A stretch of DNA of 40,737 nt, from positions 1 to 40,737 of the IMG/VR virus record IMGVR_UViG_3300030104_006429, one strand, 5' to 3'. Positions 14,050 to 17,420 of this stretch are shown here, piece after piece. The stretch comes from a virus. The notes below the pieces were generated by a model. That model was not told where the DNA came from and searched no databases. It worked only from the letters and a program-made list of their open reading frames with translations. Position numbers and translations under genes: made by a program. Within the stretch, counting starts at the first letter, position 1, and the number at the start of each line of letters is the position of its first letter.

Positions 14050-14236
14050 AGCAACCCAACACGGATATGAACTACCCGACGGCTGCACCATCGCCATCGT
14101 AAAAGACGGCCAGGTGATCGAATCCGGCACGGAGTTAGCGCTGGCACTATTCGAAGCCGCCGGCGATGTGTATCTGGATGAAATGGACCGATTTATAGAC
14201 CGCAACCAGCTGAAACAGCCAGCGGCGACGGTTTAA
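14042..14236 (+). CDS. Small hypothetical protein, last native early gene
   Basis: A 64-residue protein overlapping its upstream neighbour by eight bases, with GGAGG upstream. Its stop codon TAA forms part of the first attC-like R'' box (GTTTAAC, 14231-14237), so it is the junction between the native early operon and the cassette array. Base usage matches the upstream operon, not the cassettes. Confidence 0.65.
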   Translation: MIKATQHGYELPDGCTIAIVKDGQVIESGTELALALFEAAGDVYLDEMDRFIDRNQLKQPAATV

Positions 14237-14278
14237 CCCCCACAAGCAGGCGAGGCGCGCTGCCTTTGATTGTTATGT
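14231..14278 (+). repeat. attC-like site 1 (upstream border)
   Basis: R'' GTTTAAC at 14231-14237 and R' GTTATGT at 14272-14278. The inner arms GCAGGCG and CGCTGC pair with one unpaired G, resembling the extrahelical base of attC. At 48 bp it is at the short end for attC. Confidence 0.65.
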
Positions 14279-14299
14279 GCAACTAACGGAGTGAGATTG

Positions 14300-14554
14300 A
14301 TGGAAACGAAAACAGTAATGATGCCCAGAGAATTGACAGCGGAGAATGGAGCCAAGGCGTTGCTCTTAGGGGAGTTTAGCGTTGGTGACTTTATCGAGTG
14401 CGGACGGTGTGATGGTGGAGATGCATCATCCGATGATGAATACGAAGAGTGTGAATTTTGCGAAGGCCAAGGCGGCCACCACGTAAACTTCGCTGTCGAC
14501 TGGCCTACGATCAAAGCGATTTACGCTAAAGCCGTCGAACACTTAGGCACATAA
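14300..14554 (+). CDS. Cassette 1: DnaJ-type zinc-finger-like protein
   Basis: The ATG at 14300 follows GGAG and gives 84 residues. Two CxxC pairs (CGRCDGG and CEFCEGQGG) separated by an acidic stretch resemble a DnaJ/anti-TRAP-type zinc-binding module. The rest is short helices. It is the first cassette gene; its TAA is embedded in the following ACATAAC box. The function is unknown; a small zinc-binding adaptor or regulator is possible. Confidence 0.65.
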   Translation: METKTVMMPRELTAENGAKALLLGEFSVGDFIECGRCDGGDASSDDEYEECEFCEGQGGHHVNFAVDWPTIKAIYAKAVEHLGT

Positions 14555-14597
14555 CCACGCTATTCAGCGGTTTATCCGCTGCAATGCATTGTTATAT
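14549..14597 (+). repeat. attC-like site 2
   Basis: R'' ACATAAC 14549-14555 and R' GTTATAT 14591-14597. The inner arms GCTATT and AATGC pair with an unpaired T, followed by the CAGCGG/CCGCTG stem with loop TTTAT. Spacers of three bases separate the boxes on both sides. This is the clearest attC-like fold of the six. Confidence 0.75.
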
Positions 14598-14609
14598 CTG
14601 GAGGATTTT

Positions 14610-14786
14610 ATGAATATTTTAGATGCGCACGTTGTTGAAGTGATTGGTGAGCCTGAGTTTAAGTATGGCAAGTGGTTTGTCAGGGTAAAAGTGGACTGCT
14701 ACGGCTGTGTTAGTGAAACACAGCCGATGTTCAGCACAAAAGAAGCTGCCGAATCGCTAAAGGTTGGAGACGTGGTTCAGATATAA
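14610..14786 (+). CDS. Cassette 2: small hypothetical protein
   Basis: ATG at 14610 with a strong TGGAGG directly after the R' box; 58 residues. The product is beta-rich (HVVEVIGEPEFKYGKWFVRVKV), with single CYGC and a final LKVGDVVQI that looks like an SH3/OB-type small barrel end. No family was recognised. TAA forms part of ATATAAC. Confidence 0.65.
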   Translation: MNILDAHVVEVIGEPEFKYGKWFVRVKVDCYGCVSETQPMFSTKEAAESLKVGDVVQI

Positions 14787-14840
14787 CCCAGAGATTTACT
14801 GCCGAGCGCAGCGATGTCTGACAAAAGTAAATTGTTATTT
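14781..14840 (+). repeat. attC-like site 3
   Basis: R'' ATATAAC 14781-14787 and R' GTTATTT 14834-14840. A 7-bp inverted pair ATTTACT/AGTAAAT lies inside, with a small CTGC/GCAG stem at the centre. 60 bp. Confidence 0.65.
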
Positions 14841-14852
14841 TGCAGGTTAAAT

Positions 14853-15020
14853 ATGAAAAAAGGCAAATGGGTGAAGCTATTTAAACGCGAAGGTAAGCGA
14901 CTGGGAATTAAGCAGCGGACGTTGCCAGTTTGGGCGGAGCAGTGCTGGCTTGAGTCTATTGGTGCTGATGTTGACGGAGCTTGCGCCGCTCGGAGCTTGT
15001 TCTATTGGATGTCAAAATAA
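14853..15020 (+). CDS. Cassette 3: small basic hypothetical protein
   Basis: The ATG at 14853 (AGG upstream) is preferred over one at 14814, which lies inside the attC-like site. The 55-residue product is basic at the N-terminus (MKKGKWVKLFKREGKRLGIK) with a Trp/Cys-containing C-terminal half. No family was recognised. Its TAA lies in the following AAATAAC box. Confidence 0.6.
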   Translation: MKKGKWVKLFKREGKRLGIKQRTLPVWAEQCWLESIGADVDGACAARSLFYWMSK

Positions 15021-15068
15021 CCCGGCGTTAATGGGCGCGCAGCGTCCAAATTTCACGGCTTGTTATTT
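15015..15068 (+). repeat. attC-like site 4
   Basis: R'' AAATAAC 15015-15021 and R' GTTATTT 15062-15068. Central stem GGGCGC/GCGTCC with a 3-nt loop. Its left 23 bp are identical to those of site 5. Confidence 0.7.
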
Positions 15069-15085
15069 CACCGATTGGAGCGTGT

Positions 15086-15262
15086 ATGTTTGAGAGCTTT
15101 TTGATTGTGCTGGCATTTGCTTTTGTCTGCTTTATGGCTGGCTATGGAATGGTTGACTTGTTATTCCGCTGGCTGTTTGGAATCAGAATTACGATAAACG
15201 ATCAGAACGGTCATCCGCGAAAGTACAGACTGAAGAATGGAATTCTTAGAAGGTTGAAATAA
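15086..15262 (+). CDS. Cassette 4: 58-residue membrane protein
   Basis: ATG at 15086 follows GGAG and the frame stays open to TAA at 15262. The product begins with a long hydrophobic segment (LIVLAFAFVCFMAGYGM), then DLLFRWLFG and a basic tail (HPRKYRLKNGILRRLK), so it should sit in the inner membrane with a cytoplasmic basic end. No family was recognised. It is complete and bounded by attC-like sites 4 and 5. Confidence 0.6.
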   Translation: MFESFLIVLAFAFVCFMAGYGMVDLLFRWLFGIRITINDQNGHPRKYRLKNGILRRLK

Positions 15263-15317
15263 CCCGGCGTTAATGGGCGAGAGCCTGCGAACGTCACAAT
15301 TAAACGCATTGTTATAA
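15257..15317 (+). repeat. attC-like site 5
   Basis: R'' AAATAAC 15257-15263 and R' GTTATAA 15311-15317. The inner arms GCGTTAAT and ATTAAACGC pair with one unpaired base. The left 23 bp match site 4 exactly. 61 bp. Confidence 0.75.
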
Positions 15318-15333
15318 ATCTAGGAGTTTATTT

Positions 15334-15591
15334 ATGGAGAAGGTCTCACGAAAAGAAGATATGTCTCCCCGCGGTCAGTTAAGGGTTTTTACAGACGATG
15401 ATGGCGACATTCATGTGACTGTATTTTCTGATGATGGGAGCGGCAGGATTGAAACGATGGCGTCAGTAGAATTCTGCACGAGTGTTACAGGTGGCGGGCG
15501 CAGCCCGGCAACACGAAAAGCTCTGATCGAGCTTGCTAGGGCCATGAGGGAGGACAATGAGAGTCACCCTGAGCGGGCTGGTGATTTATAA
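15334..15591 (+). CDS. Cassette 5: small hypothetical protein
   Basis: ATG at 15334 with TAGGAG seven bases upstream; 85 residues. A predicted beta hairpin (GQLRVFTDDDGDIHVTVFSDDG) is followed by a Gly-rich turn (TGGGRSPATRKAL) and a C-terminal helix (LIELARAMREDNESHP). No family was recognised. The TAA is part of TTATAAC. Confidence 0.65.
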   Translation: MEKVSRKEDMSPRGQLRVFTDDDGDIHVTVFSDDGSGRIETMASVEFCTSVTGGGRSPATRKALIELARAMREDNESHPERAGDL

Positions 15592-15643
15592 CAGAGAGGA
15601 CGCGCGTCGAGGTACGAGATCGCCGCGCTCCGAGGTGTTATTT
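15586..15643 (+). repeat. attC-like site 6 (downstream border)
   Basis: R'' TTATAAC 15586-15592 and R' GTTATTT 15637-15643. The inner GGACGCG pairs with CGCGCTCC with one unpaired C. It ends three bases before the stop codon of the convergent serine recombinase. Confidence 0.65.
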
Positions 15644-15645
15644 TT

Positions 15646-17307
15646 TCAGAAATCAGCGGCACTGACATATCCTTTGCCCAGCCGATCAATCCGCAGCAAC
15701 CGCACCGCACCAGAGCGGAACTTCAGCCGTATATCAATGACGCCTTTGCCGGGCAACAACCTCTGAGCCAAACGCTCTGCCACCCTCGCCCTCGCCCCGG
15801 TAAAACCCTCAGCAGTAAAACCCTTTCCGTACACATCGATTCGTTCAAATGTCGCCATAAACAACTGCCGGGCCTTCATCCGCGCATCTTTATCCAGCGT
15901 CATCACTGCGTCTGTCAGCGTCTGCCATTCATCCAGCAATCCACCGACCACCGCGCCCGCGTACACTTTTAAATCATTCTCAGCCGCCGCCAGGGCATCA
16001 CGAGCAGCAGCCTGATCTTTCTCAAGTTCGCGCATTTTACGGATCAGCACCAACGGCACTTCATCCGTTTCCAGCAACGCCGCTGCCAATTTATCTAATT
16101 TCACCGCGATATCATCGAGCGCCACCCGCCGATCTGCCACCGTCGCGGCCAACTTCGCGCGGGTATCGTCCTGCTCAGTAAATTCAGCAACGCCCAATTC
16201 AGACCGGCAATACGTCAGCAATGCACGCTCGACCACCGCCAGCGACACCCCGCCGCCAACAGGGCAGCGCCCACCGCCATCCAGACCATCTGCGCATTGC
16301 AATCGCCGGTGTCCATCAGCCAGAGATCCATCAGCCCGCGCACGGTTCGCGTAATTCACACCCTGCATCGATGCACCACAGTAACCGCAAAAGCAGATAC
16401 CAACGCCAGTAAAAATGCCGGGAATGCCTGCACCAGGTGCACGCGGCCGCGAGCGCCCAGCCGCCTGAAGCCGCGCATAATCACTGTCAGAAATTGCCGC
16501 CGGATAGTAATCATCCAACGTGTATTCAACCCCAGCAACCCGCAGCACCTTAGCGCCAATCATCATCGGGTTTTTAAATATGCGATACAGATTCTTCCCA
16601 GAGACAGGACCATTGCTGATCCTCATGCCCTCAGAGTTCAACCGCTTAGCAATAGCCGTCCCGCCCTCACCAGACAAGTACAGCTTTACCGCCAACCTCA
16701 ATGCCTCAACGCGTTCAGGGATGAATTCATACAGCGGCGGCACATCAGATCCCGTCTCACGCACCCAGCCCGGCGGCTTACCGTTACGGATATGAGTACG
16801 CCTCTTTTCGGATATCCAGTCTTCACACGCAATCCGGATCGCCGCATTAACACGACTGCTTTTCGTCTCGCTTTCCTCATGCGCACGAATCATCACAAGC
16901 ACCGAGTAAACCAGATCCATCGGGTTCGCCCTCAGCGACTCACGATCATAGCGCTTACCGTCTGACGCAGTGACGACAGCAATACCCGCATTAATGATCT
17001 GATACAGAATGGCCTGAGCCTCAATCGGCTCAGCACGAGACAGACGATCAAGCGCTTCAATAATCAACGTTGAGCCTGCCGGCACCTTGCCAGCCTCAAC
17101 GGCCTGCAGAAACACGCCCAGCGCACCTTTCTTAATATGCGCCTGGTGATAGGCCGACAGCCCCTCATCTTTCATGCTCAGAGAGGTATCCAGCTGCAGA
17201 CCATTCTCAGCAGCGTAACGCTCAGCGTACTCAGACTGACGATCAGACGACGAGCCCTGCGCCTGTTCAGGTGTAGAGAATCGGATATAGCTGTATAATC
17301 GCGCCAT
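15646..17307 (-). CDS. int: Large serine recombinase (phage integrase)
   Basis: A 553-residue protein. The N-terminal resolvase domain holds catalytic Ser11 (YIRFSTPEQ) and the DRLSR arginine motif (87-91). The recombinase domain follows (about 180-290). A zinc-ribbon with C305/C307/C310 and C338/C348 and a long coiled coil (about 385-460) are typical of large serine integrases. It joins short attP and attB sites without supercoiling. The start is the ATG at 17307, 23 bases from the divergent rimO start, so attP lies directly upstream. It is convergent with the cassette array. It should integrate the phage into rimO; a recombination directionality factor was not recognised. Confidence 0.93.
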   Translation of the reverse strand: MARLYSYIRFSTPEQAQGSSSDRQSEYAERYAAENGLQLDTSLSMKDEGLSAYHQAHIKKGALGVFLQAVEAGKVPAGSTLIIEALDRLSRAEPIEAQAILYQIINAGIAVVTASDGKRYDRESLRANPMDLVYSVLVMIRAHEESETKSSRVNAAIRIACEDWISEKRRTHIRNGKPPGWVRETGSDVPPLYEFIPERVEALRLAVKLYLSGEGGTAIAKRLNSEGMRISNGPVSGKNLYRIFKNPMMIGAKVLRVAGVEYTLDDYYPAAISDSDYARLQAAGRSRPRAPGAGIPGIFTGVGICFCGYCGASMQGVNYANRARADGSLADGHRRLQCADGLDGGGRCPVGGGVSLAVVERALLTYCRSELGVAEFTEQDDTRAKLAATVADRRVALDDIAVKLDKLAAALLETDEVPLVLIRKMRELEKDQAAARDALAAAENDLKVYAGAVVGGLLDEWQTLTDAVMTLDKDARMKARQLFMATFERIDVYGKGFTAEGFTGARARVAERLAQRLLPGKGVIDIRLKFRSGAVRLLRIDRLGKGYVSAADF

Positions 17308-17330
17308 TTTTAAAGCCCGGAGCCATTAAA

Positions 17331-17420
17331 ATGAGCGATTCTACAGAACAACCCTCAAAACGTATAGGAATGGTGTCTCTCGGCTGCCCGAAGGATACGC
17401 CATATAGCCTCTATTCATGA
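17331..17420 (+). pseudogene. rimO: 5' fragment of rimO carried in attP
   Basis: ATG at 17331 (RBS GGAG) starts MSDSTEQPSKRIGMVSLGCPK, which matches the N-terminus of RimO, the radical-SAM methylthiotransferase for ribosomal protein S12. Its UPF0004 domain opens with the conserved VSLGCPK. After codon 21 the sequence diverges (DTPYSLYS) and stops at 17420. A possible -10 TATAAT lies at 17294-17299 inside the integrase gene; a good -35 is lacking. The phage therefore carries the host gene start up to the recombination point, so that integration restores an intact rimO. The identity rests on a short but very conserved stretch. Confidence 0.8.
17361..17412. other. attP: Predicted attP of the serine recombinase
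   Basis: Imperfect inverted arms ATGGTGTCTC (17370-17379) and GATACGCCAT (17394-17403) match at 8 of 10 positions and flank TCGGCTGCCCGAAG. The centre falls in the conserved RimO codons Gly-Cys-Pro-Lys, and homology to RimO ends just after it. The size and symmetry suit a large serine integrase site. The exact crossover dinucleotide is not determined. Confidence 0.6.

Follow-up and report, generated by a model that had tools for sequence, protein, structure and literature searches.

The closest described system is Burkholderia phage JC1, reported in 2022, whose integration in the 5′ end of rimO was mapped by sequencing with an 18-bp overlap (PMC9144972). JC1 supplies an ATG that precedes the attP overlap by 15 bp, RimO stays in frame with its length unchanged, and active, stable lysogeny was demonstrated by experiment (PMC9144972). 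RimO is also given as the insertion site of a serine-recombinase prophage, prophage 2 of Variovorax boronicumulans J1, in Table 2 of PMC9658991. In the dusA-associated integrases and islands, a conserved RNA-modification gene exchanges its 5′ end for one supplied by the element, and putative promoters lie upstream of the new gene start (PMC4482086); these differ from the locus described here, which targets rimO rather than dusA and uses another integrase family. SpyCI elements likewise integrate at the 5′ end of a gene, mutL (PMC3430984, PMC4689407). The original prediction for our locus had set it against large serine integrases in general, which were said usually to disrupt their targets. 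That contrast overlooked JC1, in which the arrangement was already published (PMC9144972), and the principle of rebuilding the gene is therefore not new.

The window, the whole stretch of DNA analysed here, is a 40,737-bp virus record. Apart from the locus under study it is an ordinary tailed phage, with genes for terminase, portal, major head, tail, primase, repressor, and DNA methyltransferase. End repeats were looked for in the window and none was found. Since phage genes flank the attachment site on both sides, the attP of the window is in its unintegrated form. RimO itself is a radical-SAM enzyme that methylthiolates ribosomal protein S12. The features of the locus are as follows.

15646-17307, minus strand: large serine integrase of 553 aa (Pfam Resolvase, Recombinase, and zinc beta ribbon domains; PHROG 95 integrase).
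17294-17299, plus strand: TATAAT, a putative -10 for the rebuilt rimO, antisense within int codons 3-5 (read from the sequence).
17319-17322, plus strand: GGAG, Shine-Dalgarno-like, 8 nt upstream of the ATG (read from the sequence).
17331-17420, plus strand: phage-borne rimO start, with 21 codons that keep the rimO frame, then 8 codons of phage sequence and a stop (from translation).
17362-17409, no strand assigned: attP, a 48-bp interval defined by inverted-repeat symmetry, the left half of which opens with the conserved GTATAGG (17362-17368).
17385-17386, plus strand: predicted crossover dinucleotide TG, at the symmetry centre; attL/attR pairs have only TGCCC in common.
17418-17420, plus strand: TGA that would end the host-started truncated RimO peptide after integration (read from the sequence).

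As had been noted at the outset, the integrase lies on the minus strand and starts at 17307, divergent to the phage ATG across a gap of 23 bp (17308-17330). It showed 45% identity over the full length to the serine recombinase of JC1 by tblastn. Its best phage relatives were Burkholderia JC1 and Bcep176, Xanthomonas Rb1, and Pseudomonas LPPA36 (41-45% identity), and the nearest integrase located was just 58% identical. No NCBIfam integrase family was matched above the cut-off, and a search of viral contigs with this integrase alone gave no matches. The locus shares with JC1 the integrase family (about 45-49% identity), the rimO target, a matching core (GTATCCCTCGGGTGCCCG in JC1), a phage-supplied in-frame ATG, and a divergent int adjoining attP; the attP core consists of the rimO SLGCP codons and lies near the int start. 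The two differ in that the phage-supplied N-terminus is longer in the window. In addition, JC1 is a Bcep22-like podovirus of Burkholderia, whereas the nearest collinear relative of the window is a prophage of the Thalassolituus family.

The ATG at 17331 opens the frame MSDSTEQPSKRIGMVSLGCPKDTPYSLYS, which ends at the stop codon 17418-17420. This stretch comprises an in-frame rimO start, MSDSTEQPSKRIGMVSLGCPK, followed by DTPYSLYS-stop. All 21 codons had been described as closely matching RimO. The ATG and the frame were as described, but close resemblance to the RimO N-terminus was limited to RIGMVSLGCPK, the last 11 of the first 21 residues, and the first ten residues are phage-specific and differ among phages. 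The 29-aa peptide gave no RimO match in NCBIfam. The same kind of rimO-start frame was found in phages JC1 (MSKKYSIGIVSLGCPR...) and Rb1 (MAVESWLRSAGKNPSIAMISLGCPKKIVGKL-stop), in both beside int, and in contig L109, and in lysogens it is fused to full rimO. The ribosome-binding site that had been claimed is present as the GGAG; a 4-nt Shine-Dalgarno match occurred in only 8 of 50 related junctions, and GGAG is thus not a conserved feature.

The orientation of recombination by serine integrases is set by a non-palindromic central dinucleotide. Over 17 complete attP sites, inverted-repeat matching was 0.565 when centred on the TG, and 0.33 or lower at the other centres tested. With the TG begins the codon for the invariant Cys in SLGCPK, a residue that in the RimO family binds the auxiliary iron-sulfur cluster. 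On the phage arm, 23 bp ahead of the crossover, GTATAGG was nearly invariant among 50 non-redundant junctions; it was present in free phages and lysogens and missing from empty host sites. The P′ half-site of the window fitted the family consensus less well, with ATAGCC instead of GTATAC. The 17331-17420 segment is the part of the phage attP that lies towards rimO.

We are highly confident that attP and attB recombine at the TG, attL truncating the host rimO and attR rebuilding it with a phage start. The serine integrase would recombine attP with the 5′ end of host rimO (attB), with the crossover at the TG in the codon of the first, invariant Cys of SLGCPK. The predicted attL would carry the host promoter, host ATG, and first host codons, and would then run into phage DNA in which a stop soon follows. 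In the predicted attR, the phage ATG and first codons would be joined in frame to the remainder of rimO, so that the conserved residues of RimO would be retained and only its variable N-terminus altered. Transcription of the restored gene would begin in phage DNA, probably at an antisense promoter lying in the first part of int, and the resulting RimO would be expected to stay functional. The phage of the window presumably behaves as its relatives do.

Genome contigs were scanned with an alignment of four integrases, which gave 80 loci of integrase relatives. In 57 of them an intact rimO flanked int in head-to-head orientation, and the int and rimO starts were less than 100 bp apart in most of these. 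At six loci (L008, L013, L015, L023, L067, and L073), a phage leader of 137-1507 bp separated int from the rebuilt rimO; the attachment arm was still recognisable and the rimO frame was kept. In the first six genomes we looked for the opposite junction, and four of them contained it; attL read MSQLNPKVGFVSLGCPKVSSSKL-stop in Xanthomonas hortorum, MSTSSTPKVGFVSLGCP-stop in Azotobacter, MSSTSTPKVGFVSLGCPSDHISIPL-stop in Pseudomonas flexibilis, and MSGHKIGFVSLGCP-stop in a gammaproteobacterial MAG. Within the stretches read, attL was not found in Bordetella petrii (G007) and Thalassolituus marinus (G001). A second batch of 19 genomes yielded truncated rimO starts in ten, with clear attL at L009, L016, L017, L030, L046, L033, L069, L040, and L058; attL was not found in the stretches read of nine. 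Truncated rimO starts were thus present in 14 genomes besides G029, and the lysogens include Comamonas and Delftia. At the far end of the prophage in Comamonas sp. BIGb0124 (L033, G057 contig C1), two truncated rimO starts were observed 686 bp apart, at 1048070 and 1048756, as if two elements had integrated successively at the same site.

G029, a genome of the same family as T. marinus, contains a prophage that is collinear with the window and circularly permuted exactly at the window attP. Positions 17.4-40.7 kb of the window correspond to 1.65-23.8 kb of the contig, and positions 1-17.3 kb to 23.9-40.5 kb; this collinearity indicates that the two ends of the window adjoin in the prophage. 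At attL (contig 1634), the truncated host rimO start read MTDHSDTTPSVTPSTGSGTAGRSGKVGFVSLGCPKAA-stop (...VSLGCPKAA-stop), and at attR (contig 40553), an intact rimO had the phage-made beginning MKENNHLKKSSGRIGLVSLGCPKALVDSER. No lysogen of exactly the window's phage turned up, nor any named host; the G029 prophage, its collinear relative, sits in rimO. The junction pair that had been proposed as a check, one with intact and the other with truncated rimO, was accordingly present in natural lysogens of relatives, G029 being one example. Together with the reading frame and the symmetry of the site, the attL/attR structure in these lysogens bore out the prediction that integration rebuilds rimO with phage 5′ sequence, and the interpretation is supported as far as the rebuilding of the gene is concerned; the suggested change in rimO expression or S12 methylthiolation is a hypothesis.

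Empty sites were read in prophage-free sisters of T. marinus. Their DNA homology with the occupied rimO begins at the core, not before, and the first codons differ; the sisters read, for example, MSDGKLSSGKVGFVSLGCPK, and the phage arm of T. marinus reads MAENISGSDRKRIGMISLGCPK. In T. marinus (L180 14400-18200; G001 contig C60 80.4-84.2 kb), an intact int and a phage-made rimO start were observed, with most of the prophage gone. With host genes resuming only about 2 kb beyond int, the prophage is a remnant.

Reading frames were compared over 50 non-redundant junctions from phages and prophages related to the window. A start codon and an open frame in the rimO register were present on the phage-side arm in 50/50, compared with 1/50 and 0/50 in the other registers, in a set consisting mostly of lysogens, in which selection may act on rimO itself once integration has taken place. 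Given these counts, chance similarity to rimO was rejected. Another possibility is that the similarity reflects mere identity between attP and attB, with the upstream ATG and open frame incidental. Some likeness between attP and attB around the crossover is indeed required, and the core here is a coding motif of high conservation. The start and frame lie outside this shared core, yet they hold the rimO register throughout, including in the four unintegrated forms among the 50 (the window, JC1, Rb1, and L109), and we therefore regard this explanation as very improbable. Even less credible is the idea that the segment is a scrap of host rimO left by imprecise excision with no role in integration. 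The segment does resemble the start of a host gene, but its phage arm is unlike host rimO (GTATAGG versus, for example, AAAGTCGGTTTT) and makes a symmetric site with the phage P′ arm. Moreover, the collinear prophage of G029 was opened exactly at this segment, and the idea was rejected as contradicted by the G029 junctions. On the other arm, a stop in the rimO frame occurred within 15 codons in all 19 P′ arms, which indicates that the host-started peptide is ended early; it followed directly after Cys-Pro in seven (binomial P about 2e-5, indicative only, as these stop and junction sequences are related to each other).

Two divergent promoters would not fit between int and the phage ATG, and transcription of rimO in a lysogen would therefore have to start inside int or beyond. 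The best -10-like site of each gene in this stretch was compared with those obtained by synonymous recoding, in which every gene kept its own codon usage, and a site was taken as unusually good at P below 0.05. The TATAAT of the window exceeded this expectation (P=0.001). Antisense -10-like sites above expectation were detected in 28 of 43 rimO-type integrases versus 1 of 15 without adjoining rimO (Fisher P about 2e-4), and the -10 was mostly absent in nine of the 43, the GLVYSY group. No good -35 was found within 16-18 nt of TATAAT in the window, which is why the consensus promoter scan did not list it. The -10 that had been suggested inside int therefore exists as a sequence with statistical and circumstantial support, but it is not accompanied by a good -35. 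A precedent for a promoter within int is strain Manfredo, where one inside the decayed int of SpyCIM5 restores mutL expression (PMC3430984). That promoter is a rescue after decay of an element that silences mutL when intact, whereas the antisense -10 of the window type is present in intact phages. We tentatively propose, at somewhat less than an even chance, that the first codons of int double as the promoter of the rebuilt rimO and that selection keeps the antisense -10 so that lysogens express phage-started RimO. If this is true, a host gene would depend on the int sequence. Such dependence would explain why T. marinus retains an intact int and the phage-made rimO start; the retention fits it and is no proof.

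The evidence on expression also bears on an alternative that we consider unlikely, in which the frame is rebuilt but rimO is cut off from its promoter, and the prophage serves as a switch, silencing or altering rimO in the manner of SpyCI at mutL. Transcription of mutL is blocked when SpyCI occupies its 5′ end (PMC4689407), and in G029 about 39 kb of prophage come to separate the host promoter from rimO. In most relatives, moreover, the phage ATG is not preceded by a strong Shine-Dalgarno sequence, which counts against our preferred explanation. A silencing switch sits poorly with the retention of a start codon and open frame in every junction, with the enrichment of -10-like sequences just upstream on the correct strand, and with the leader variants of 137-1507 bp, which retain both the phage arm and the rimO frame. 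Streptomycin resistance was unchanged in JC1 lysogens, but it was also unchanged in rimO knockouts (PMC9144972).

In a tree of the integrases (n=83), those targeting rimO did not form a single clade, and at least 12 changes were required, counting a class without rimO that includes loci cut by contig ends. Integrase relatives without adjoining rimO (L038, L044, L047, L053, L061, L065, L066, L076-L079, L081, and L084) were interleaved with rimO-type integrases on the tree. One contig, L041, was binned as Opitutaceae (Verrucomicrobiota), and its integrase grouped with those of Betaproteobacteria; it is possibly misbinned.

Just downstream of int, window positions 14230-15645 contain six ATAACC...TTGTTAT palindromic elements (at 14233, 14551, 14783, 15017, 15259, and 15588) that separate five small ORFs, in the manner of an attC-like gene-cassette array. 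The number of such matches expected in whole-window shuffles was 0.36. Related attC-like arrays were observed in other IMG/VR contigs (L268-L272), and no match of this type was found in the collinear G029 prophage. Cassette arrays carried by phages have been described as a class (PMC9892861).

Beyond what was established for JC1, the new elements are the breadth of the arrangement, which is common in related prophages, the location of the crossover, and statistical hints that a promoter and a stop have been selected. For widespread proteobacterial prophages, the finding means a rule, in which the serine integrase is aimed at a codon that cannot change, that of the cluster-binding Cys of RimO, and the price of targeting this invariant codon is that the prophage carries a replacement gene start. 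It also provides predicted attB/attP pairs for the integrase family and makes an effect of lysogeny on ribosomal protein modification testable.
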